IMG/VR virus record: IMGVR_UViG_3300032323_000842
Location: 1-31,772 of that record
Length of the DNA: 31,772 nt
Direction: 5' to 3' (one strand)
Source of the DNA: a virus
In this document: positions 767-23,176 of the stretch, in pieces
Position numbering within the stretch: the stretch's first letter is position 1
Layout of the letters: each line of letters begins with the position of its first letter
Program-made: the position numbers and the translations under genes
The notes under the pieces: model-generated
Seen by the model: only the letters and a program-made list of their open reading frames with translations
Database searches by the model: none
What the model was told of the DNA's origin: nothing

Positions 767-1726
767 TTAAATGAGGCTTAGAATGTCATCAACAGTATGT
801 TTAATTAGATGGTTTTGTAAGACATATTTGTAAGACAATGCAGTTTTTACACAGTCGGCAGGATTCCATGATTTTAGTATTTCGGTAAGTTGTTCTTCGG
901 TATCATAGACTGTCCCAAATCGGGCAAGTAGTTTTGCACCAGCAATATTCCGTGCAATCCATGGCGTCTTGTTTAACATCGATTCCAGTATCACTAGACC
1001 AAATCCCTCTGCATCCGAATTCATAATGTAACAGTCTGCATCAGCAATCGCATCTTTGACATCCTTAGGGTCTTCCACCATTAACGGTATCACATTCTCT
1101 GAGGCATGTGGCATGATACCGAAACGATTGTCATACCCGGTAGTTACAAGAATGGCATCTTTTAAATCTGCCTTACGGAATGCATCGGCAAGTTCCATCA
1201 TTTTCTTATTTGGCCAGTAACCACCGCAAGACAAGAACATTGTCTTATCTTTTGGAATATTGTATTTGTCTTTGAAACGACCTTCTGTGCCAATACAATC
1301 ATTTGGTGAAATACCATGAATAACTTTATGAGATTTGTGTTCTTGTTTCCACTTCTTTACATGGTCCCAATCTTCTGGTGCAGAACAACCAATATATTTG
1401 GCATCTTGTAGACCTTTTAGACAAGTAGGACTTTCAGATGGTTTAATCAACATGTAAAGAACAGGTGAATTAATTCGATGTGCATTTTCCAATACAAAGT
1501 TTTGAACACCAACATCACCACCATGAACAACAATTAAATCTTTGTCCATTAATTCTTGTGCTTCTGATGTTACTCTCACGCCATTTAAATGACCTTTGTG
1601 TTCACCTGCCAATACAGTTACATCATGGTGTCTTTGCACACATTCTTCTGCCATTTGTTGCACATAATATTCCGAACCACCAGGGAAAGGTGCATATCGG
1701 TGAACTACAAAACAAATTTTACTCAT
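767..1726 (-). CDS. Glycosyltransferase, GT4-like (GT-B fold)
   Basis: A 319-residue GT-B glycosyltransferase. The N-terminal domain opens with a glycine-rich loop PGGSEYY (residues 15-21). The C-terminal domain starts near SCGGYWPNKKM and carries the donor-binding signature around NSDAEGFGLVILESM, matching the EGFGLxxLE pattern of GT4 retaining enzymes. It should move a sugar from a nucleotide donor to a surface glycan or another acceptor; donor and acceptor are unknown. It is the last gene of the sugar cluster and overlaps the upstream nucleotidyltransferase-cupin gene by ATGA. At 319 residues it is slightly shorter than usual GT4 enzymes (about 350-400). Confidence 0.85.
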   Translation of the reverse strand: MSKICFVVHRYAPFPGGSEYYVQQMAEECVQRHHDVTVLAGEHKGHLNGVRVTSEAQELMDKDLIVVHGGDVGVQNFVLENAHRINSPVLYMLIKPSESPTCLKGLQDAKYIGCSAPEDWDHVKKWKQEHKSHKVIHGISPNDCIGTEGRFKDKYNIPKDKTMFLSCGGYWPNKKMMELADAFRKADLKDAILVTTGYDNRFGIMPHASENVIPLMVEDPKDVKDAIADADCYIMNSDAEGFGLVILESMLNKTPWIARNIAGAKLLARFGTVYDTEEQLTEILKSWNPADCVKTALSYKYVLQNHLIKHTVDDILSLI

Positions 1727-2478
1727 CTTCTTTCAATGTCCTCTTCAACGCACTTTTGACCCCATTGAATTTCTACAATATGCAATGGTTCGTTTGATTC
1801 ATTTGATAACTTATGCCATACACCAGAAGGAATATTCACATGATGGTCTTTATACAATTCTTTTCTAATTGCGGAACTAGGTCTTTCTTCGTGAACAACA
1901 CCTTGTCCTGATACCACATGCCAATATTCATTACGATATGTGTGTCTCTGCATACTCAAAGATAGACCTGGATTTACTGTCAATTCTTTTACTTTACAAG
2001 TTGGTGTCTCATAAAGAACTCTATAATAACCCCATGGTCGATTTGTCTTATTCTCAAAGTAGTTACCTAAAATCCATGAAGAAGAATTCATTTTGTGTTC
2101 ACCACCAACACCAAATGCAAACTCTAGGTTATCATCAGGATATCCCATTTCTAGTGTGTTCTTATCACCTCTGTCACCACCATTTGCAAAGATAATTCTA
2201 TCATTTGGAAATAATTGTCTAGTGATTGTAATTGCAAGATTTGAAGAATCGTCATCATCATTATATTCAATCACATAATCAACCATCTTCAAATTCTTTA
2301 CGATTTGACTTCTTTCATACCAAGTCATAAATGGTCGACCTTTCTTACGGGTCAACCATGCATCTGAATTCAGACCAACAACAAGAACATCACCTAGTGC
2401 CTTTGCGGCATTAAAGTATGCAATATGTCCTGAATGAATTGGGTCAAAACCACCAGTCACTAATACAATTTTTTTCAT
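1723..2478 (-). CDS. Bifunctional sugar nucleotidyltransferase (HldE C-domain-like) fused to a ManC-type cupin
   Basis: Two domains are visible. Residues 1-135 form an HxGH nucleotidyltransferase like the RfaE/HldE C-terminal domain: GGFDPIHSGH at 9-18, a conserved YERSQIV, and KMNSSSWIL in the position of the ISSTxxI motif. Residues 147-245 form a cupin like that of mannose-6-phosphate isomerase type II (RPWGYYRVL, then RHTYRNEYWHVVSG with candidate metal histidines). The expected role is activation of a sugar 1-phosphate, with the cupin isomerising or sensing the sugar; the actual reaction is not provable here. It overlaps gmhA upstream and the GT4 gene downstream by ATGA, so the three are probably translationally coupled. 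Confidence 0.8.
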   Translation of the reverse strand: MKKIVLVTGGFDPIHSGHIAYFNAAKALGDVLVVGLNSDAWLTRKKGRPFMTWYERSQIVKNLKMVDYVIEYNDDDDSSNLAITITRQLFPNDRIIFANGGDRGDKNTLEMGYPDDNLEFAFGVGGEHKMNSSSWILGNYFENKTNRPWGYYRVLYETPTCKVKELTVNPGLSLSMQRHTYRNEYWHVVSGQGVVHEERPSSAIRKELYKDHHVNIPSGVWHKLSNESNEPLHIVEIQWGQKCVEEDIERR

Positions 2479-3080
2479 AGTTTAATTCCATCGTTTCTAC
2501 TATTTGTTTCACGAATGTGTTGTGCCAAGATATGCATTAATGCTTGATGACAATCTTCAACGATACCATAGTTATCTTCTCGCACATGTAAAACATAATC
2601 AGCAAGTTCTGCGGCTTTACCACCATCAAAACCTACAAACGCAATTACTTCCATATTCAGTTTGTGTGCCTGATTGATTGCTCTGATAATGTTTGGTGAA
2701 TTACCTGATGCAGAAATCGCAACGAGAATATCACCTGCACTACCTTTCATACTCAACTGAAATGCAAACACATCATCATATCCAATATCGTTTGCAATTG
2801 CGGTCAAAATAGAACCTGAAGTCAATGGTTCAATTTTTGGTCGCAACAGAGCATCATAGTGTGTACCTTTTGCATGGTCGCAATGAAAGTGGTCACTCAT
2901 CGTAAGAGAACCGCCATTACCACACACAAAAACTGGCAATCTTTTCTTGTATGCCAGTTCTAAAGTTTCTAAAACTTTTTGTAATTGTAACTTATCTACT
3001 GATTCTAAACCTGCGTTTACTCGGTTTGCGTAATTAGATAGTCGTTGATTTATTTGCGATGTTATTGACATACCATTCAT
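2475..3080 (-). CDS. gmhA: Phosphoheptose isomerase (GmhA-like, SIS domain)
   Basis: A 201-residue single SIS domain, the usual length for GmhA, which converts sedoheptulose 7-phosphate to D-glycero-D-manno-heptose 7-phosphate. The sugar-phosphate loop is VCGNGGSLTMSDHFHCDHAK, followed by AISASGNSPNI, the second SIS phosphate-binding segment. Polar residues near the C-terminus (EDCHQALMH) match the region of the GmhA catalytic histidine. The start at 3080 lies inside the upstream reductase gene (47-nt overlap) and has AAAAAGG just before it; an internal ATG three codons later (3071) is the alternative. With the HddA-like kinase two genes upstream it defines the entry to a heptose pathway. Confidence 0.9.
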   Translation of the reverse strand: MNGMSITSQINQRLSNYANRVNAGLESVDKLQLQKVLETLELAYKKRLPVFVCGNGGSLTMSDHFHCDHAKGTHYDALLRPKIEPLTSGSILTAIANDIGYDDVFAFQLSMKGSAGDILVAISASGNSPNIIRAINQAHKLNMEVIAFVGFDGGKAAELADYVLHVREDNYGIVEDCHQALMHILAQHIRETNSRNDGIKL

Positions 3081-4002
3081 AAGCCTTTTTCAATCCAATA
3101 TTTAAGTCTGTTTTAGGTGTCCAACCTAATCTTGTAATTCTACTATTATCAGTAAGTTTGTTCATAGTTCCATCAGGTTTACTGGTATCATACACAATCT
3201 CACCATCATAGTCAAGAGCTTGTTTTGCGATTTTTACAAACTCACCGATTTCGATATCATGGCCTGCGCCAACATTCACAAATGCCTGCATAGGTTCTGT
3301 TACTGATTCCCATAATTTTTTATCGACATTCATTACATGAATTGCGGCATCTGCCATATCGTCAACATAAACAAATTCTCTACGAGGTTTACCTGTTCCC
3401 CAAACTATGAATTGTTTATCACCATTTACTTTTGCACGATGAATTCTTTGAATCACACCTGCGGCCAAGTGACCATTTGCTTCGTCATAGTTATCACCAG
3501 GTCCATAAAGATTACATGGTAGAATAGAACGATAGTCTGTACCAAATTGACGATTGTAACTTTCACACATTTTGATACCTGCAATCTTGGCAACTGCATA
3601 TGGTTCGTTTGTTGGTTCTAACTTACCAGTCATTAGTGTTTCTTCTTTGATTGGATTCTCAGCAAACTTAGGAAGAATACATGTAGAACCCAAAAACAAA
3701 AGTTTCTGCACACCATGAACATATGCTTGATGAATTACATTTGATTGAATCATCAAATTCTTATAAATGAAATCACCAGGATAAGTATTGTTACCTACAA
3801 TGCCACCCACTTTTGCAGCTGCGACATAAACTTGGTCGATTTTATTTGTTGCGAAAAAATCTTTTACTGCTTGTTGATTTGTTAAATCTAATTCATTATG
3901 TGTTCTTGTAATGATATCATTTTTATTGACACCACTATCAATCAGTCTGCGAACAATTGCAGAACCGATAAGTCCTCGGTGACCTGCCACAAAAATTTTC
4001 AT
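3034..4002 (-). CDS. GDP-L-fucose synthase-like epimerase/reductase (extended SDR)
   Basis: A 322-residue extended short-chain dehydrogenase. It has the Rossmann motif GHRGLIGSA (residues 7-15), GSTCILPKF where GDP-fucose synthases have GSSCIYPKxA, and the catalytic YAVAK. Family enzymes epimerise C3/C5 and reduce the 4-keto group of a GDP-4-keto-6-deoxy-hexose with NADPH. Given the heptose genes around it, the true substrate may be a GDP-4-keto-6-deoxy-heptose, as with the WcaG-like reductases of Campylobacter capsule pathways; this is inference. The RBS is GAGG, 6 nt before the ATG, one base after the kinase stop codon. Confidence 0.88.
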   Translation of the reverse strand: MKIFVAGHRGLIGSAIVRRLIDSGVNKNDIITRTHNELDLTNQQAVKDFFATNKIDQVYVAAAKVGGIVGNNTYPGDFIYKNLMIQSNVIHQAYVHGVQKLLFLGSTCILPKFAENPIKEETLMTGKLEPTNEPYAVAKIAGIKMCESYNRQFGTDYRSILPCNLYGPGDNYDEANGHLAAGVIQRIHRAKVNGDKQFIVWGTGKPRREFVYVDDMADAAIHVMNVDKKLWESVTEPMQAFVNVGAGHDIEIGEFVKIAKQALDYDGEIVYDTSKPDGTMNKLTDNSRITRLGWTPKTDLNIGLKKAYEWYVNNIANKSTTI

Positions 4003-4003
4003 A

Positions 4004-5005
4004 TTATACCTCTTGGTCTTGATAATCGTGATATATTAATTGACTGCCCAAATATTCAAAATCGATGGGCACTTCTTTAAGTCCTAATGCGTATGCAACA
4101 TTCTTTTGTTTGTCTGGTGGTGTTAAGAATAACATAAACCCACCACCTCCAGCACCTAACAGTTTACCACCAACTGCACCTGCACGAAGTCCTTTTGTGT
4201 AAATCTCATCAATGTCACTATTGGTGATTGACTTCTCAATGGTCTTTTTATGTTTCCATTGTTCATCCATTAACTTACCCAACTCTTGCACTTTTGTTTC
4301 ACTATTGGAGAACAAGATTCTTTCGGCTTCTTCTGTGATTTGTTTTACGATATTCAAATCAACAGATTTTGCCTTAATGTTTTCAATTTTCTTTTCTGCA
4401 ATGTCCGAAGCATTTCTCAATTGTTCAGTAAAGAATACTTGAACCCATGATTCTAGTTCTTTGATTGTATTCTTATTGACATGCATCGGAGAACATAAAA
4501 ACTCGGATGCACCACCAAATGTAACTTTATTGAAACCACCAAATGCAGCTGCAACTTGGTCTTGTGAACCAACAGATTCACCAAGAATGTTTTGTTCTAA
4601 GTTAATTGCTTCGAGTGCAAGGTCTCTTTTAGTTGGGTTTTTGTTTTGTAATACAGAAAGACCATGCAATAATCCTACTGTAAAACTAGAACTTGAACCG
4701 ACACCTGTGCGATTTGGTAAATCACCGTGATGAGTAATATCAAGTCCATCTGTGAAACCCATGTGACGAATCGCCTCACGAATTACAGGTACTTGAATAT
4801 CTTCAACAGAATTTGTTTCTTGTCTATCGTAATACCTGATTCTATATTTGTAATCAAAGATAGGTGGTAATTTTCTCAATACAAGAAAAGAATATTTGTT
4901 GATGGTGGTAGAAATGACTGCACCACCATGTTCTCTGTACCATGCGGGATAGTCTGTGCTACCGCCAAAAAATGAAATGCGATATGGTGTTCTAATGATA
5001 ATCAT
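4004..5005 (-). CDS. hddA: D-glycero-D-manno-heptose 7-phosphate kinase (HddA-like GHMP kinase)
   Basis: A 333-residue GHMP-superfamily kinase. The N-terminal RTPYRISFFGGSTDYPAWY is close to the HddA signature. The ATP-binding loop is TGVGSSSSFTVG, and the third GHMP motif is KLLGAGGGGFMLF near the C-terminus. HddA phosphorylates heptose 7-phosphate at the anomeric position, the step after GmhA. The gene overlaps the FkbM methyltransferase by ATGA. Length and motifs are complete. A fucokinase-type activity is the alternative, but the combination with gmhA favours a heptose. Confidence 0.87.
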   Translation of the reverse strand: MIIIRTPYRISFFGGSTDYPAWYREHGGAVISTTINKYSFLVLRKLPPIFDYKYRIRYYDRQETNSVEDIQVPVIREAIRHMGFTDGLDITHHGDLPNRTGVGSSSSFTVGLLHGLSVLQNKNPTKRDLALEAINLEQNILGESVGSQDQVAAAFGGFNKVTFGGASEFLCSPMHVNKNTIKELESWVQVFFTEQLRNASDIAEKKIENIKAKSVDLNIVKQITEEAERILFSNSETKVQELGKLMDEQWKHKKTIEKSITNSDIDEIYTKGLRAGAVGGKLLGAGGGGFMLFLTPPDKQKNVAYALGLKEVPIDFEYLGSQLIYHDYQDQEV

Positions 5006-5541
5006 AGAATGTGTTTAATTTTTTCATAGTGAGATTCGTGAACAAACACATCATCGATATGATGTTCACCATGTTTAATCTCTGCAATCAAATAATAACC
5101 TTTATCTTCCATCATCTGACGAGCAGGGTCTCTTGTTGAAGTATCTCTATAATAATCAACTTCGAAAGTAACCACATTGAAGATATACTTTGTTTCCATA
5201 ATCTTGCAGAATGCCTGATAGGTAACTTCAGGTGGTTCTAAGTCAACAGACAAATAATCAATTACATCGGGCATGTTATTGTCTGCAAGAACTTTCACAT
5301 AATCAACTTTCAATGCATCTTCATTGATATAGAATGTATTTGGTCGATTCTTCCAACCTTCATTATATCTTTCATCGATTTCAACTGCAACACCTCGCCA
5401 CAGTCTTTCTTTCTCAAAGAAATAACTATTGTTCATTTTATCGAAGAATGAACCACCAACATCAAGAAAAGTGCCATTTACTTTTTGTTGCATTATTCTA
5501 TCGACAAGAACATCTTGTCCTAATTGTGAATAGTATGTCAT
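5002..5541 (-). CDS. FkbM-family SAM-dependent methyltransferase
   Basis: A 179-residue class I methyltransferase. YYSQLGQDVLVDRIM is the typical FkbM opening, FLDVGG (residues 25-30) is the SAM-binding motif I, and DYLSVDLEPPE is the conserved acidic segment. FkbM enzymes O-methylate sugars or small molecules. Inside this cluster the likely target is a hydroxyl on the glycan or on the activated sugar. It is shorter than many FkbM proteins (about 230-280), but no motif looks missing. It overlaps both neighbours by ATGA. Confidence 0.85.
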   Translation of the reverse strand: MTYYSQLGQDVLVDRIMQQKVNGTFLDVGGSFFDKMNNSYFFEKERLWRGVAVEIDERYNEGWKNRPNTFYINEDALKVDYVKVLADNNMPDVIDYLSVDLEPPEVTYQAFCKIMETKYIFNVVTFEVDYYRDTSTRDPARQMMEDKGYYLIAEIKHGEHHIDDVFVHESHYEKIKHIL

Positions 5542-6554
5542 CGTGTTAAAAACTTTCCTTTATTTTCTGCAACTCGTTCACGCCAGTAATTCAACAAATC
5601 TTCCATTGTCTGTTTGTATGCAATCTCTGGTTTCCAACCTGTATGTAAACGAAACTTTTCTGTGTTTGGAACTTGTAAGTCTGCATCAATTGGTCGCAAC
5701 CTGTCAGGGTCAACTTCTACACGAATCTGTTCTTTCATTGTAGATAGTGACAATAGAGTATTCAACACATCACCAATTTCACAAGTAAATGTACCACCAA
5801 TATTGTAGTATGCACCTGGTACAGGATTGTGTGTTAGTAACAGATAGTATGCTCTTACGGCATCTCTCACATCTGCAATTGTTCTGAGTGATTTTAAATT
5901 ACCAACTTTAACAACTGGTTCAATATAACCTGCCTCAATCATTGCAATTTGTTTTGCGAATGTAGATTCTGCAAATACATCACCACGGCGAGGACCTGTG
6001 TGTGTAAACATTCTTGTAGTCTGCACATTCATATTGTATGCTTCTGCATAGAAACGACCAACTAGGTCTGTACCACATTTTGAAATGGCATATGGTGATG
6101 CAGGATGAAAACTACATTCTTCATCGATTGGTAGTTTATCTTGTGGTACTCGACCAAAAACTTCTGATGAAGCACAAACATGAATCTGTGCTTGTGGCAC
6201 ATGTTTCTTACAGGCATCTAGTAGTCTTACTGTGCCTTGAACATTGACATTTAGTGTTTCGATTGGCGAATCAAAACTGGTTTTAGGAAAACTTTGGGCC
6301 GCCAAATGGAATACATAGTCAGGCGCATTGTCTTTGATTGCTGTATCAATCGAAATTCCATCGTTTAAATCTCCGTAAACTAATTTAACACGATTCTTGG
6401 TGTTAATATTCTCAATTAAATTTTTAATATTGTCAAGTGGACTTCTCCAACGAATAAGACCGACAATATTCCAATCAGTATTCGCAATCAAATATTCAGC
6501 AAGGTGTGAACCAACCATGCCGGTGATACCAGTAATAAAGGCTACTTTTGCCAT
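5538..6554 (-). CDS. GDP-mannose 4,6-dehydratase-like SDR
   Basis: A 338-residue extended SDR close to GDP-mannose 4,6-dehydratase. It shows ITGITGMVGSHLAEYL (NAD(P)-binding), SSEVFG, the catalytic YAISK, HTGPRRGDVFAES and LRTIADVRDAVRAYY, all Gmd landmarks. It produces a GDP-4-keto-6-deoxy sugar. Campylobacter and Yersinia homologues act on GDP-manno-heptose, and the gmhA and hddA genes in this operon make that plausible here. The start at 6554 has GGAG 5 nt upstream and overlaps the preceding glycosyltransferase by 13 nt. Confidence 0.9.
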   Translation of the reverse strand: MAKVAFITGITGMVGSHLAEYLIANTDWNIVGLIRWRSPLDNIKNLIENINTKNRVKLVYGDLNDGISIDTAIKDNAPDYVFHLAAQSFPKTSFDSPIETLNVNVQGTVRLLDACKKHVPQAQIHVCASSEVFGRVPQDKLPIDEECSFHPASPYAISKCGTDLVGRFYAEAYNMNVQTTRMFTHTGPRRGDVFAESTFAKQIAMIEAGYIEPVVKVGNLKSLRTIADVRDAVRAYYLLLTHNPVPGAYYNIGGTFTCEIGDVLNTLLSLSTMKEQIRVEVDPDRLRPIDADLQVPNTEKFRLHTGWKPEIAYKQTMEDLLNYWRERVAENKGKFLTR

Positions 6555-7567
6555 GCCATCTCCGATGCTTCAATCATATCATTCAAACGATTGATGTAAG
6601 TGTGTTTATCTTTTACTTTTTTCATTTGATTCAAAATCAAATCTTTTGTCTTTGGGTTGTCTTGCATTTCTTTTGCAATGTAAAACAACTCACTTGTATC
6701 GGCAGAATATGCAATCTCTTGGTCAAAGAAATCATATGCAGTCTTAGAGTTTGTAATGCCAAGACAACCATAACTCACATTCTTAATTGAACGACAAGAC
6801 ATGTAACCATTTGCAAGGTGATTGTTTGGTCGAACTTCAAATGGCAGATAAGAATTCAAAACAAATTCTTTTAATTGTTCTGATGGTAATGGATTCTTAT
6901 GTGGGTCATTGTGAACAAAAGGAATATTATTCTTCTTACATTCTTCTGCAAACTTCACAACATAATCATAGTTGCCATCATCTTTGCTTTGCCAACCTTG
7001 TGTGATTGAACCACCAAATGATGCATACTTGGGTTCGTGAAATGGTCTGAAACGATTCTCAAAATTGATTTCATTTGGTAACAAGTCTGTCGCCCAAATA
7101 GAATAAAAGATATCGTATTTGTCACCAGATTCAAAGAATGAAGTGCCATCGTTAATTGGTGTGTATTTCTCTTTTTCAAAATAGTATGCATAGTTTTTAT
7201 CTACGACACCATTGACACCCCAATTACACGCAAATCTAAAATCAATCAAACGACCTACTTTACCAAGGTACATGTCCGCACCTGGATTTCCTTCAACAGG
7301 TCCTTTATTACCAAGATAATGAATGATGTATGTTGAAGTGGGTCTGAGTGGCAGATTGTTGCTGATGCCATTTTGAAATACTAACCATTGTTCAGAAATG
7401 ATAAGTGCATCATCAAAGAATTCATCTGGCAAGTTATCTCTGTTATCTAACCAGTATGTTTGATATCCTTCATGTAGTGATGCACGAACAAGAGCATCAT
7501 GCACAAAGGCATGAGTGTGTCTTGTATCAGGTTTTGCACCCCAAATAATTACTTTTGAATGTCTCAT
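6542..7567 (-). CDS. Probable GT-B glycosyltransferase (CgeB/GT1-like C-terminus)
   Basis: A 341-residue protein without a strong family signature. Its last 90 residues (SYGCLGITNSKTAYDFF, then an acidic surface segment and KDKHTYINRLNDM) follow the usual end of glycosyltransferase group 1/CgeB proteins: a loop replacing the donor site, a helix, then a terminal HTYxxR segment. Aromatic residues are frequent, and no signal peptide or membrane segment is seen. The gene sits between a dehydratase and a methyltransferase in the sugar operon and overlaps both. A glycosyltransferase is the best guess, with moderate certainty. Confidence 0.6.
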   Translation of the reverse strand: MRHSKVIIWGAKPDTRHTHAFVHDALVRASLHEGYQTYWLDNRDNLPDEFFDDALIISEQWLVFQNGISNNLPLRPTSTYIIHYLGNKGPVEGNPGADMYLGKVGRLIDFRFACNWGVNGVVDKNYAYYFEKEKYTPINDGTSFFESGDKYDIFYSIWATDLLPNEINFENRFRPFHEPKYASFGGSITQGWQSKDDGNYDYVVKFAEECKKNNIPFVHNDPHKNPLPSEQLKEFVLNSYLPFEVRPNNHLANGYMSCRSIKNVSYGCLGITNSKTAYDFFDQEIAYSADTSELFYIAKEMQDNPKTKDLILNQMKKVKDKHTYINRLNDMIEASEMAWQK

Positions 7568-8205
7568 TTAATTAGAAACCACGCATTATTTTCAACAATC
7601 TTCACAGGAGTTTCTTTAAAGAATTCTTTGACTGCAGCATCAACTGAAGTTAAATTGATATCGTGACCTGCAAAGAGTCCGCCTTTTTTAACTTTAGGCC
7701 AATAACTTTGAATGTCTGCAAGTGTTGCTTCGTAACTGTGGTCACCATCTACGAAAACGAAATCTAGTGAATCATCTTCGAGAGTTTGTGCAAAATTTAC
7801 ACTATGCTCATATGCGAATGTAACTTTGTCACCAAACTTTTCTAGTCTTGATTTACACAATCTCTTTGTAACTTCTTGTCTCTCTACGGTGATTCTAGTG
7901 CCATCCCAATCGATAAAAGAAGGATAGTTATCTACAACATATAGTTTTTTAATTGTAGGTGTGTTTTTAAGAAAATACTCTGATGTGAATCCATGACATA
8001 CGCCAATCTCACAACCAACTAAGTCACCACTCAACTCTTGGATAAAAGGTAGAAGTCCACGACCAGAAATATTCGATTCGATTCGACCATATTCAATTTG
8101 TTTCTGCACCCATTCTTCAGGACCTAGATGGTCGTATGGGTCACGGCATTGAACAGGTTCTTTTACTAAATTTGATGTTGTATCAATAATTAATGTATCA
8201 CTCAT
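7564..8205 (-). CDS. Class I SAM-dependent methyltransferase (Methyltransf_24-like)
   Basis: A 213-residue methyltransferase. GCEIGVCHGFTSEYFL is motif I, and DFVFVDGDHSYEATLADIQ followed by KKGGLFAGHDI is the hallmark of the Methyltransf_24/cephalosporin-hydroxylase-like group. It probably decorates a glycan. The ATG at 8205 is preferred over an in-frame TTG at 8217. It overlaps the upstream stop codon by 8 nt and lacks a strong Shine-Dalgarno, so coupling to the upstream gene is likely. It overlaps the downstream gene by ATGA. Confidence 0.82.
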   Translation of the reverse strand: MSDTLIIDTTSNLVKEPVQCRDPYDHLGPEEWVQKQIEYGRIESNISGRGLLPFIQELSGDLVGCEIGVCHGFTSEYFLKNTPTIKKLYVVDNYPSFIDWDGTRITVERQEVTKRLCKSRLEKFGDKVTFAYEHSVNFAQTLEDDSLDFVFVDGDHSYEATLADIQSYWPKVKKGGLFAGHDINLTSVDAAVKEFFKETPVKIVENNAWFLIK

Positions 8206-9052
8206 ATTTTTTCTCAATTATTTGTTTCCACTCAGGAACTCTATCATACTGATGAACGATTGAAAATGGTCGACCATCACTTGTGCAAACCATATTATCT
8301 ACTAAAATTGGAGATTTTTCAACCAGCTTGTCAGCATATTTACCTGCAACATGAGGACCTGTTGTACCTAACTGAGCAGCATAACCATCTTCACTCATTG
8401 CAAAGTTTGTGATATCTTTGTATGGTTTCATGTTCAAAAGAATGTTGACTGCTGCCTGGTCAGGACCACCACCGCCTTCTGTCCAATGACTTGTGCCATT
8501 ACACAACATGTAAACATTCAAAAAGAAATCGAGCATTGTATCAAACTTACCCGATACTGTGCCTGCATTATAGATTAGATTGTTTTGATTGTGGTCGTGA
8601 ACTAATGGACCAAATGCTTTGAAAAGATTGTGATTACCCCAATCTTCGTCTTTGTAACGAATAGATTCACATGCAACATTAATCTCTTTGTCGCCAATGT
8701 TCTTTTCAATCCATTCAGATGGGTTGGTCTGAAAGATTACATCTTTAACATCGGTAGAAATAATGTATCGGTATTGTCCTTGAAACTTCTTTAGAAAATA
8801 CCACATGTGAAGAAATCTCTCTACAACAATAGAGAAGTTTTCTTTGTATTCGAATTTTTTGAGATTGTCGTTCTTACCGAACGCCAAAACTGTGTATTGT
8901 CTTTTGACAAGTTCTTCCACGGTTTCATAATCTACATTATAACAAATCATGGCTTTAACACCATCAAAACCAGACCTGTCTAACGAATTAACCCAAGGTT
9001 TGATTTTGTCAAATGTATAACCAGTGATACAACCAACCACAATGTCTTTCAT
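8198..9052 (-). CDS. Putative GT-A type glycosyltransferase
   Basis: A 284-residue protein with a nucleotide-diphospho-sugar transferase layout. An N-terminal strand (DIVVGCITGYTFDKI) is followed by a segment ending in YIISTDVKDVIFQ, where the acidic DxxD stands in for the metal-binding DxD of GT-A enzymes. Farther on, NAGTVSG and GGGGPDQAAVN resemble acceptor and catalytic loops of this fold. The ATG at 9052 has GGAG 8 nt upstream and is preferred to the in-frame TTG at 9064. It is the first gene of the sugar cluster. Confidence 0.65.
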   Translation of the reverse strand: MKDIVVGCITGYTFDKIKPWVNSLDRSGFDGVKAMICYNVDYETVEELVKRQYTVLAFGKNDNLKKFEYKENFSIVVERFLHMWYFLKKFQGQYRYIISTDVKDVIFQTNPSEWIEKNIGDKEINVACESIRYKDEDWGNHNLFKAFGPLVHDHNQNNLIYNAGTVSGKFDTMLDFFLNVYMLCNGTSHWTEGGGGPDQAAVNILLNMKPYKDITNFAMSEDGYAAQLGTTGPHVAGKYADKLVEKSPILVDNMVCTSDGRPFSIVHQYDRVPEWKQIIEKKYE

Positions 9053-21183: not shown

Positions 21184-21642
21184 TTAAACTTTCTTATTCA
21201 ATTCAGATTGATAGGTTCTTTGTCTCAATTCGGAAGAACTAAACCGATGTGTGCGAGAGTTGTAGTATGTTTTAATACCTCTTGCATCACAAATTTCACG
21301 ACCTGTTAAAGGTTTATCTTTATATTCTTCACCACAAATACGAACTGTGATAGGTAAGAACATCAACAAATCTTCTAGGTCTTTTTCGGTGTCATAGACG
21401 ATAATCTCATCTACGAATTTTACGGCAGATAGTTGAACATATCTTTCAACTACTGATTGAACTGGTTTGTTTTTTGTATTTGGTCTGTCGATTGTTGGGT
21501 CAGATTGTAGACCAACAATTAAGTGGTCACAAACAGATTTACATTCTGCCAACATTAGAATATGACCTGCATGTAAGAGGTCAAAAGTGGAACAGGTAAA
21601 GCCGATAGGGCGGCCAATCATATCATCAGGTAGAACTAACAT
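21184..21642 (-). CDS. Cytidylyltransferase-like protein (TagD/HldE superfamily)
   Basis: A 152-residue HxGH nucleotidyltransferase near glycerol-3-phosphate cytidylyltransferase in size. TCSTFDLLHAGH is the nucleotide-binding start; ERYVQLSAVKFVDEIIVYD is the typical middle; RFSSSELRQR replaces the RTxGISTT loop. Substrates are unknown. Two adjacent ATGs exist (21645, 21642); GGAG lies 4 or 7 nt upstream, favouring the second. An 8-bp hairpin and a late-promoter-like element lie just upstream, separating it from pqqA. Confidence 0.85.
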   Translation of the reverse strand: MLVLPDDMIGRPIGFTCSTFDLLHAGHILMLAECKSVCDHLIVGLQSDPTIDRPNTKNKPVQSVVERYVQLSAVKFVDEIIVYDTEKDLEDLLMFLPITVRICGEEYKDKPLTGREICDARGIKTYYNSRTHRFSSSELRQRTYQSELNKKV

Positions 21643-21665
21643 CATATAACTCCATCATAAAGGTT

Positions 21666-21686
21666 GTCCGGTCATTGCGACCGGAC
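21666..21686 (-). terminator. Perfect 8-bp hairpin below pqqA
   Basis: Arms GTCCGGTC (666-673) and GACCGGAC (679-686) pair perfectly around a 5-nt loop. It is much more GC-rich than its surroundings. On the minus strand it follows the pqqA stop by 10 nt, but only AACCTTT follows it, so it is a weak intrinsic terminator at best. It could instead be a 5' structure of the next mRNA. Confidence 0.5.
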
Positions 21687-21689
21687 TCC

Positions 21690-21697
21690 TATTTATT
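21690..21697 (-). promoter_or_regulatory. Possible late promoter (AATAAATA)
   Basis: One mismatch from TATAAATA, overlapping the pqqA stop codon and 48 nt above the cytidylyltransferase-like start. AT-rich chance matches are possible. Confidence 0.35.
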
Positions 21698-21768
21698 TAG
21701 CGATTTGCGATATACATCGTGATTTCAAATCCATAACGCATTTCTACCGCTTCAGGTTTTGTCCACAT
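21697..21768 (-). CDS. pqqA: PqqA, pyrroloquinoline quinone precursor peptide (23 aa)
   Basis: A 23-codon ORF with the PqqA hallmarks: an MWTKP start and a GFEITMYIANR end, in which Glu15 and Tyr19 have the obligatory E-x-x-x-Y spacing. In bacteria PqqE, with the chaperone PqqD, cross-links these two side chains; proteases and PqqB/PqqC then complete PQQ, cofactor of methanol, glucose and alcohol dehydrogenases. Length equals that of many bacterial PqqAs (22-24). The ATG has AAGGAG 6 nt upstream, the best RBS in this region. No pqqBCDE is present, so host enzymes would be needed. It has its own promoter-like sequence, a 16-bp palindrome upstream and a hairpin downstream. Confidence 0.88.
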   Translation of the reverse strand: MWTKPEAVEMRYGFEITMYIANR

Positions 21769-21789
21769 AATATTCTCCTTTTAAAAGAA

Positions 21790-21805
21790 GTGGAAATATT
21801 TCCAC
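21790..21805. promoter_or_regulatory. 16-bp perfect palindrome, candidate operator
   Basis: GTGGAAATATTTCCAC is its own reverse complement. It lies 9-24 nt downstream of the pqqA -10 hexamer, covering the expected transcription start, and 21 nt above the ATG. A dimeric repressor site or a short 5' hairpin would both fit. Confidence 0.5.
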
Positions 21806-21813
21806 AATACTAT

Positions 21814-21840
21814 ATTATATGAAACTCTAAAGAATATCAA
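21814..21840 (-). promoter_or_regulatory. Putative sigma70-type promoter of pqqA
   Basis: On the minus strand TTGATA (835-840) and TATAAT (814-819) are separated by 15 nt. The -10 is perfect and the -35 has one mismatch, but the spacing is short. It lies in the 94-nt gap between ahpD and pqqA. Confidence 0.5.
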
Positions 21841-21862
21841 TACGCAAAATCATTAAAACAAT

Positions 21863-22369
21863 CTACGAATTTAACACTTTCGCCACACTATTCATAACTG
21901 ATGCGATTCTTCCGATATCTCTCAGTTGTTCAACACTATAACCCATCTTTTTCAGACCATCATAGTGTGCTTTAACACAGAAGTGACATTTACCAACGAT
22001 AGAAGCGGCAAGAGAATATGCCTCAAATCTTTCTTTGGTTGTACCACCATGAGTTGAAATTGCGTTCATGCGAAGTTGTGCAGGTAGTCCTTTGAGTTGC
22101 TCATCTTCTGCCATCTCAACATATGGATACCACACATTGTTTTGTGCCATCAAACTTGCAGCAGTCATAGCGGCATTTGCTTCAACGGGTGCATCAGCAA
22201 GTAGAACCGCTAGTAATTTACCATTACCAGTTGCGGCCAAAGCGGCAACTGCACAACCCATCGCTTCATCTGCATTGAGTGTGCTACGCAAAAGAACCGC
22301 ATCAAGGTTTAACTTGGCGTCTTTTGCATAGTCAGGCAACGCTTCTTTAACAGAATCGATGAATGCCAT
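21863..22369 (-). CDS. ahpD: AhpD-like alkyl hydroperoxidase / AhpC reductant
   Basis: A 168-residue all-helical AhpD/CMD-family protein. The active-site signature is complete: E116, C128, H129, C131 and H135 in KCHFCVKAH, with the E-12-C-3-C-4-H spacing of mycobacterial AhpD. AhpD passes electrons from a lipoyl partner to AhpC and has weak peroxidase activity itself. Length (about 170-177 in bacteria) is normal. It overlaps ahpC by TAATG, so the two are coupled. The alanine-rich composition is unlike most phage proteins nearby and suggests recent bacterial origin. Confidence 0.9.
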   Translation of the reverse strand: MAFIDSVKEALPDYAKDAKLNLDAVLLRSTLNADEAMGCAVAALAATGNGKLLAVLLADAPVEANAAMTAASLMAQNNVWYPYVEMAEDEQLKGLPAQLRMNAISTHGGTTKERFEAYSLAASIVGKCHFCVKAHYDGLKKMGYSVEQLRDIGRIASVMNSVAKVLNS

Positions 22370-22911
22370 TATAGTGTTTCTCCACCTACTGCACGATTAC
22401 ATGCACAGAGTTCACCTGTTTGCAATGCATCCAAAATACGCAATGTTTCTTCTGGATTACGACCAACATTCAAGTTGTTAACTGTAACATGTTGAATCTC
22501 ATTCTTTGGGTCAACAATCAATGTAACTCGTAATGCTGCGCCAGCAGGTTCATAGAAGTAACCTAATTGTTGAATGAGAGATTTTTCCCAATCACGGCTA
22601 ACATCTGCAAACTGAATGTGTTTAATCTTCTGCAAATCTGGATGTGCTTTTTGCCACGCCACTTTACAGAATTCGTTGTCTGTCGAACCAGTCAATAGAA
22701 CTGCATCACGGTCCTCAAAGTCTTGTGCCAATTTATCATATGCAACAATTTCAGTTGGACATACGAATGTGAAATCTTTTGGATAGTAAACAATTACTTT
22801 CCACTTACCTGGAAAAGATTCTTCTGTAATTGGGAAGAAAGCATCTTCAGGTTGACCGGGTTTTACACCTGTCACTACAAACGATTCTAATTTATCGCCT
22901 ACGGTTTTCAT
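22369..22911 (-). CDS. ahpC: AhpC peroxiredoxin
   Basis: A 180-residue 2-Cys peroxiredoxin that reduces hydrogen peroxide, organic peroxides and peroxynitrite. The peroxidatic Cys51 lies in DFTFVCPTEI. The C-terminal GELCACNR gives Cys169 and Cys171, the CxC pair seen in AhpD-dependent (mycobacterial-type) AhpC. The ATG has AGGAG 6 nt upstream. A promoter-like sequence and dyad lie in the 76-nt gap above. Neighbouring ahpD supplies the matching reductant, so this looks like a functional pair rather than a stray gene. Confidence 0.94.
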   Translation of the reverse strand: MKTVGDKLESFVVTGVKPGQPEDAFFPITEESFPGKWKVIVYYPKDFTFVCPTEIVAYDKLAQDFEDRDAVLLTGSTDNEFCKVAWQKAHPDLQKIKHIQFADVSRDWEKSLIQQLGYFYEPAGAALRVTLIVDPKNEIQHVTVNNLNVGRNPEETLRILDALQTGELCACNRAVGGETL

Positions 22912-22969: not shown

Positions 22970-22998
22970 AGTATAGTCAATAAACCATTATTTGTCTA
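22970..22998 (-). promoter_or_regulatory. Putative sigma70-type promoter of ahpCD
   Basis: On the minus strand TAGACA (993-998) and TATACT (970-975) are separated by 17 nt, each hexamer 5/6 to consensus. The -35 lies in the end of the AbrB-like gene. An expected start near 22963 gives a leader of about 50 nt. Confidence 0.5.
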
Positions 22999-23176
22999 AT
23001 GATTTTTTCCTATGTTCCTCATCGATTTTTTTAATAATGATATTGCCATTCTTTTCGGAGATATCAAGGGTGTCGCCTTCTTTCCATCCCGTTTCTTCCA
23101 ATAATTCAGGTGGCAATTCTACGATTGCATCACCATTATCGCATATTTCAAGAACTTTTGAGGTAAATGTTTTCAT
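22988..23176 (-). CDS. AbrB/SpoVT-type DNA-binding protein
   Basis: A 62-residue swapped-hairpin AbrB-family protein: DAIVELPPELLEETGWKEG, then DTLDISEKNGNIIIKKI, which matches the MazE/AbrB strand-turn-strand layout. Such proteins bind DNA as dimers and serve as transition regulators or antitoxins. No toxin gene is adjacent, so a transcription regulator is more likely. It overlaps the dCMP deaminase gene by ATGA and sits directly above the ahpC promoter. Confidence 0.8.
   Translation of the reverse strand: MKTFTSKVLEICDNGDAIVELPPELLEETGWKEGDTLDISEKNGNIIIKKIDEEHRKKSLDK

Follow-up and report, generated by a model that had tools for sequence, protein, structure and literature searches.

In PQQ synthesis, the host's PqqBCDE proteins are the catalysts, whereas each PQQ made consumes one copy of the peptide PqqA. 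In lakes and coastal seas, Methylophilaceae move a sizeable amount of carbon by PQQ-dependent methanol oxidation. According to a genome study, published Methylophilaceae genomes carry 3-12 pqqA copies and a single pqqBCDE (PMC4109929), that is, stand-alone chromosomal pqqA units dispersed beside one set of enzyme genes. Differential expression of pqqA, again chromosomal, has been described in a PQQ-producing methylotroph, in a paper according to which it is unclear how PQQ biosynthesis is regulated (PMC9851590). Neither a phage link nor an operator is given for these pqqA copies in the accessible portions of the two papers.

Phage pqqA has been reported before. In 2020, a Lake Baikal study described a Methylophilaceae phage population, VP_266, that encodes both PqqA and methanol dehydrogenase (PMC7678222), and a 2026 reservoir paper placed viral pqqA from sediment contigs among phosphorus-cycle genes (PMC13188868). 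Thus, the bare presence of pqqA in a phage is not new, and whether it had been reported earlier, a question that the first-pass annotation of the DNA analysed here had left open, is answered by that one Baikal virus. The genome papers of Melnitz (PMC9004378), MEP401/402 (PMC10580990), and MEP301 (PMC8024684) leave pqqA unmentioned as a phage gene, the first of them naming PQQ solely as a medium additive. Furthermore, neither the ubiquity of pqqA in methylophages nor its host-type control was found in the open-access literature searched, where absence is weak evidence. Phage genes behind a host-type box of a host nutrient regulator are known from cyanophages, whose genes are placed under host PhoBR (PMC10976474); the pqqA cassette described below appears to be arranged likewise, but it concerns another pathway, a putative regulator, and a gene for a 23-aa cofactor precursor. 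Here we describe the scale and wiring of phage pqqA, which go beyond the earlier reports.

Results

The window, by which we mean the whole 31,772-base stretch of virus DNA analysed, holds a single pqqA that runs on the minus strand from an ATG at 21768-21766 to a TAA at 21699-21697 (Table 1). The first-pass annotation had proposed a 23-residue PqqA here, strand unstated, with a strong Shine-Dalgarno sequence, E15 and Y19 in the E-x-x-x-Y spacing of the PqqE cross-link residues, and an intergenic gap of about 200 nt. All of these features are present, the gap measuring 217 nt between flanking ORFs at 21863-22369 and 21184-21645, both likewise on the minus strand. It had also named the lack of a PqqA HMM match at a permissive threshold as evidence against this identity; both profiles instead scored well above their cut-offs, PF08042 at 35.6 bits (cut-off 21.1, E 8.9e-9, all 19 profile positions matched) and TIGR02107 at 37.4 bits (cut-off 20, E 1.5e-9, all 21 profile positions matched). 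The window ORF is a genuine PqqA, far from chance. With the PqqA of Methylophilaceae hosts (PF08042/TIGR02107) it shares its length, the W-x-K-P and R-x-G-F-E-x-T-M-Y core, the Shine-Dalgarno sequence, an upstream operator, and a downstream hairpin; however, the window copy sits in a phage genome without pqqBCDE and has Y12, I16, and an IANR tail.

Table 1. Features of the pqqA locus and its neighbours in the window.
Feature	Coordinates	Strand	Description	Evidence
pqqA CDS	21697..21768	minus	23 codons + TAA; MWTKPEAVEMRYGFEITMYIANR	translation; PF08042 and TIGR02107 above curated cut-offs
Shine-Dalgarno AAGGAG	21775..21780	minus	6 nt 5' of ATG	sequence
Leader hairpin	21790..21805	minus	GTGGAAATATTTCCAC; 6-bp stem, at predicted mRNA 5' end	folding; stem enrichment in viral leaders
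Predicted -10 TATAAT	21814..21819	minus	-35 would overlap operator	sequence; conserved in sister-phage alignment
PQQ-operator-like site	21840..21855	minus	TAATGATTTTGCGTAT; 71 nt 5' of ATG	16.3 bits viral PWM, 12.0 bits host-trained PWM; sister-conserved
GC-rich hairpin	21666..21686	minus	GTCCGGTC...GACCGGAC; between pqqA and next gene	downstream stem enrichment
Cytidylyltransferase-like protein	21184..21645	minus	downstream neighbour, outside cassette	PF01467, phrog_7878
AhpD-like carboxymuconolactone decarboxylase family protein	21863..22369	minus	upstream neighbour, outside cassette	PF02627
AhpC-like peroxiredoxin	22369..22911	minus	further upstream, outside cassette	PF00578; 66-69% to Burkholderiales AhpC

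The window is a fragment of a T4-like phage and a genuine phage genome, marked as such by UvsX and by a T4-like family B DNA polymerase that is nearest to those of cyanophages at ~52%. The phage most likely infects a Methylophilaceae methylotroph; a search with its AhpC matched 44 stretches, the nearest being from Burkholderiales (best 69%). VP_266 is likewise a T4-like Methylophilaceae phage with pqqA, and its operator, hairpin, and breadth are undescribed in the accessible portion of the Baikal study (PMC7678222).

A tblastn search of 50,697 phage records with the window peptide found PqqA in 12, and a second PqqA type used as query returned the same 12. Nine are phages of Methylophilales/Methylophilaceae (MEP401, MEP402, MEP301, Venkman, P19250A, and four Melnitz records); the remaining three are an unassigned phage from spring water and a pair of records under the name Acinetobacter phage MD-2021a. 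The member of this pair that was inspected, CAKLQF020000010.1, contains ppk, fur, pqqA, and genes of the pqqBCDE type and resembles a bacterial chromosome rather than a phage. The Methylophilaceae phages fall into six types, which are all that were found (MEP431-434, HIM624-A, Venkman EXVC038S, MG-MTP1, and RSA-MFP1 are listed in taxonomy, did not turn up in the phage-record collection, and lie outside this set); all six were isolated on PQQ/methanol-dependent Methylophilaceae and carry pqqA, never annotated so. As the first-pass annotation had anticipated, 23 codons escape gene calling: in the phage records inspected, this stretch either has no annotation or lies under an unrelated opposite-strand 'hypothetical' CDS, because the gene is so small, and PHROGs contains no PqqA family.

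Among viral contigs, a degenerate PqqA DNA pattern gave at least 120 matches in IMG/VR, and all 120 listed are stand-alone PqqA genes with a stop; most viral copies among the matches listed have an AGGAG-like Shine-Dalgarno sequence. The subset in which Glu15 is encoded by GAG, counted completely in IMG/VR, comprises 82 contigs, compared to 10/120 in the first sample, which gives an estimate of ~1,000 IMG/VR contigs with pqqA (range 550-2,000, the binomial error of 10/120). The neighbours of viral pqqA sort into 66 groups upstream and 76 downstream, all contig ends being treated as a single group; the gene is frequently antisense to both neighbours. One viral contig bearing pqqA, IMGVR_UViG_3300023174_000036, is 356 kb long. 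A minority viral PqqA type, IRLGFEVTMYFKNR and its relatives (RLGFE[VI]TMYF...), was found on contigs L011, L016, L018, L022, L026, L027, L031, L038, L042, L080, and L119; some contigs of this type have portal or head-tail genes, an upstream operator is not evident by eye before it, and it probably belongs to another host group.

Records such as CAKLQF020000010, with its pqqBCDE, could be taken to mean that viral pqqA is non-functional passenger DNA from the host, or host sequence mis-binned into viral contigs. The occurrence of pqqA in six isolated phage types effectively refutes this, and together with the UvsX and family B DNA polymerase of the window, the dozens of distinct neighbour clusters, and the low dN/dS given below, it leaves such a reading scarcely credible. 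A phage methanol dehydrogenase as constant partner of pqqA was rejected: TIGR03075 detected none in 48 pqqA-positive viral records other than the window, whereas VP_266 was reported with one (PMC7678222). No PqqE scored above cut-off in 49 pqqA-positive records including the window, three of which gave weak matches below it, and a complete viral PQQ pathway, judged by pqqE within the same record, was found in none of the 49.

Loss of E15/Y19 in sister phages had likewise been named as speaking against a functional PqqA. Both residues are kept in 120/120 viral matches listed, in a scan whose pattern left both free. Across 139 copies compared, W2, P5, R11, G13, F14, E15, T17, and Y19 are invariant, some of these positions being fixed by the search patterns and R11 by none of them. 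For 126 distinct core sequences, pN/pS was 0.23 and the median dN/dS 0.12, and synonymous codons vary at the invariant residues. Phage pqqA is a host-type metabolic gene under purifying selection, and the selection acts on it as a PqqA peptide, in keeping with a role as PqqE substrate. The first-pass annotation had also considered a decoy or inhibitor, in which the phage peptide would occupy PqqD/PqqE and leave the host short of PQQ, perhaps to shut down methanol oxidation or to keep other phages out; PqqD is a peptide chaperone for PqqA (literature cited in PMC9851590), and a non-productive peptide could compete for it. However, a decoy gains nothing from the cross-link residues, yet every viral copy listed retains them although the search pattern did not ask for them; R11 is invariant as well, and a very common viral PqqA sequence is identical to the host's. 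This refutes any version in which the substrate residues should be lost, and we consider a decoy of any form very unlikely. The proposal that the phage supplies extra precursor for host PqqBCDE is supported, at the level of sequence, by the HMM matches, the retained Glu15 and Tyr19, the dN/dS, the Methylophilaceae phage isolates, and the lack of a recognisable PqqE.

The host family was reached via pqqA searches at the order level. A family-level draw around a 1.3-Mb genome had pqqA in 149 of 150 genomes, mostly in several copies, and methanol dehydrogenase was present in 7/7 presumed Methylophilaceae genomes tested. One 23-residue peptide is both the commonest host copy sampled (the host-family consensus) and a very common viral type. 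We infer that the family drawn is Methylophilaceae because of the 1.3-Mb scale, the pqqA copy number, methanol dehydrogenase in all seven genomes, and the peptide shared by host and virus.

Upstream of viral pqqA, 7-mers such as TAATGAT were enriched (43/137 vs ~3 expected), and motifs learned separately from 112 viral upstreams (TAATGATTTTCnGTAG) and 40 host upstreams (TCATGAWWWTCATKAG) converged. Of 112 non-redundant viral pqqA upstreams, 67% scored above 10 bits with the host-trained PWM, compared to 1.8% of random windows and 1.7% of other-ORF upstreams in the same contigs; conversely, the viral-trained PWM gave such scores for 62.5% of the regions preceding host pqqA and for 1.0% of random windows from host genomes. 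Thus, the 16-bp site that we propose as a candidate PQQ operator is enriched 5' of host pqq genes and phage pqqA over controls. Among the isolates, Melnitz, Venkman, MEP301, and P19250A have it and MEP401/MEP402 have no clear site, and ~30% of viral pqqA copies are without it at the threshold used. With at most one mismatch, the pattern occurs at 2-7 distinct places in each of seven presumed Methylophilaceae genomes, and in 7/7 it lies upstream of pqqA copies and of pqqB, the latter at a distance of ~80-190 bases; PqqB and PqqC at these loci were confirmed by NCBIfam where tested. Reading the upstream motif as a Fur (iron) box was rejected because near-exact sites are limited to these few places per genome, pqq genes included. 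Each perfect site in the six small host genomes adjoins a pqqA, and several of these genomes have one-mismatch sites away from known PQQ genes. A one-mismatch site within the bioF coding sequence of three host genomes was set aside.

In the larger host genome, G317, one of the two remaining places (L249, L486) lies before a TonB receptor gene and the other in the gap separating xoxF from a gene called xoxJ-like by reading only. The best solved relatives of the receptor are YncD and a PQQ transporter (E ~1e-82), and its match to the PqqU model is partial and below the full-length cut-off; we regard the PqqU-like receptor gene and the xoxF/xoxJ-like locus as candidate regulon members. At the order level, near-perfect sites were found at 4/8 Burkholderiales pqqA loci. 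An operator common to host and phage, on replicating phage DNA of high copy number, could also act as a sponge that titrates the host regulator and alters host pqq expression, the peptide being incidental. The strong purifying selection on the pqqA coding sequence, the reading frame and stop that are intact throughout the viral copies listed, and the many viral copies that lack the operator all argue against a sponge, to which we give very little weight.

Downstream of the operator-like site, the predicted -10 would start the RNA at the leader hairpin. A leader stem of at least 6 bp, located ~19-25 nt 5' of the ATG, is present in 45.5% of 112 viral leaders compared to 13.7% of shuffles, and 51 viral leader hairpins have 49 different stem arms: the structure is kept and the sequence is free. 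Similarly, 54% of viral copies have a trailer stem of at least 6 bp vs 12% of shuffles; the complete short pqqA RNA shows only a modest folding advantage over shuffles (z -1.9). In the sister-phage alignment, the operator, the -10, and the re-paired hairpins stand side by side. The stems may serve as RNA-stabilising ends of a tiny message.

At the window's place, pqqA is found in 15 of the first 20 relatives listed and is absent in most more distant ones. In a sister phage (L334) whose next gene is 95% identical, the ahpD-like gene is followed directly by a hairpin and the cytidylyltransferase gene, with no pqqA in between, and the unit of gain and loss is a cassette of ~165 bp. Since most relatives of the window's AhpC and cytidylyltransferase are without pqqA nearby, the gene is optional. 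Relatives of the window AhpC occur in at least 598 IMG/VR stretches, and 13 of the best 80 have pqqA nearby; no phage record in the collection searched matched the ahpD-ahpC pair at the DNA level. Because pqqA adjoins these ahpC/ahpD-like peroxide genes in the window phage and several sisters, PqqA might be put to another use than methanol dehydrogenase, with PQQ as an antioxidant or redox agent or a cross-linked peptide that acts by itself. However, this neighbourhood is one of many, and the xoxF locus of one host genome also has an operator-like site; we hold such a use to be improbable. Elsewhere in the window, 22988-23176 encodes a small MazE-type antitoxin-like protein (PF04014) with no obvious toxin partner, and a run of sugar-nucleotide and glycosyltransferase-like ORFs at 767-8217 on the minus strand, judged by reading translations, is perhaps for surface-glycan modification.

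Discussion

The reading that we prefer, with a probability of roughly 0.8, is that the window carries a self-contained, host-regulated pqqA cassette that resupplies the stoichiometrically consumed component of PQQ for host PqqBCDE. Judged from its sequence, the cassette most likely serves a phage of Methylophilaceae methylotrophs as an auxiliary metabolic gene. Its order would be a PQQ-operator-like site, a sigma-70-type promoter, the 5' leader hairpin, the Shine-Dalgarno sequence, PqqA, and the 3' hairpin. Upon infection, the cassette would provide extra PqqA, the host's PqqD/PqqE would cross-link Glu15 to Tyr19, and host PqqB/C would complete PQQ, the cofactor on which the host's own methanol dehydrogenases depend. 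Once host expression declines under the phage, the precursor would be the first component to run short. We propose that pqqA travels alone because each PQQ made costs one PqqA, whereas the enzymes can last, and phages without a recognisable PqqE or, in 48 records, methanol dehydrogenase would need only pqqA. By analogy with cyanophages and PhoBR (PMC10976474), the host operator would switch the cassette on at times of host demand for PQQ. One consideration against this reading is that a host with several pqqA copies may have enough PQQ without it.

Beyond the window, we lean towards the view that methylophages repeatedly took up a mini pqqA unit answering to an undescribed host PQQ regulator, which would act through TCATGAWWWTCATKAG-type operators at pqqA and pqqB. 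If so, the supply of PQQ precursor would limit methylophage infection in general and be under host regulation, and a bacterial PQQ regulon would be revealed through its viruses; in one genome such operators also lie at a PqqU-like gene and a xoxF/xoxJ-like site. The candidate operator offers an entry point to the regulation of PQQ synthesis. Altogether, these data suggest that pqqA, the gene for the only component spent in PQQ synthesis, is widespread in Methylophilaceae phages, and they offer a hypothesis as to which metabolite limits infection of streamlined methylotrophs.
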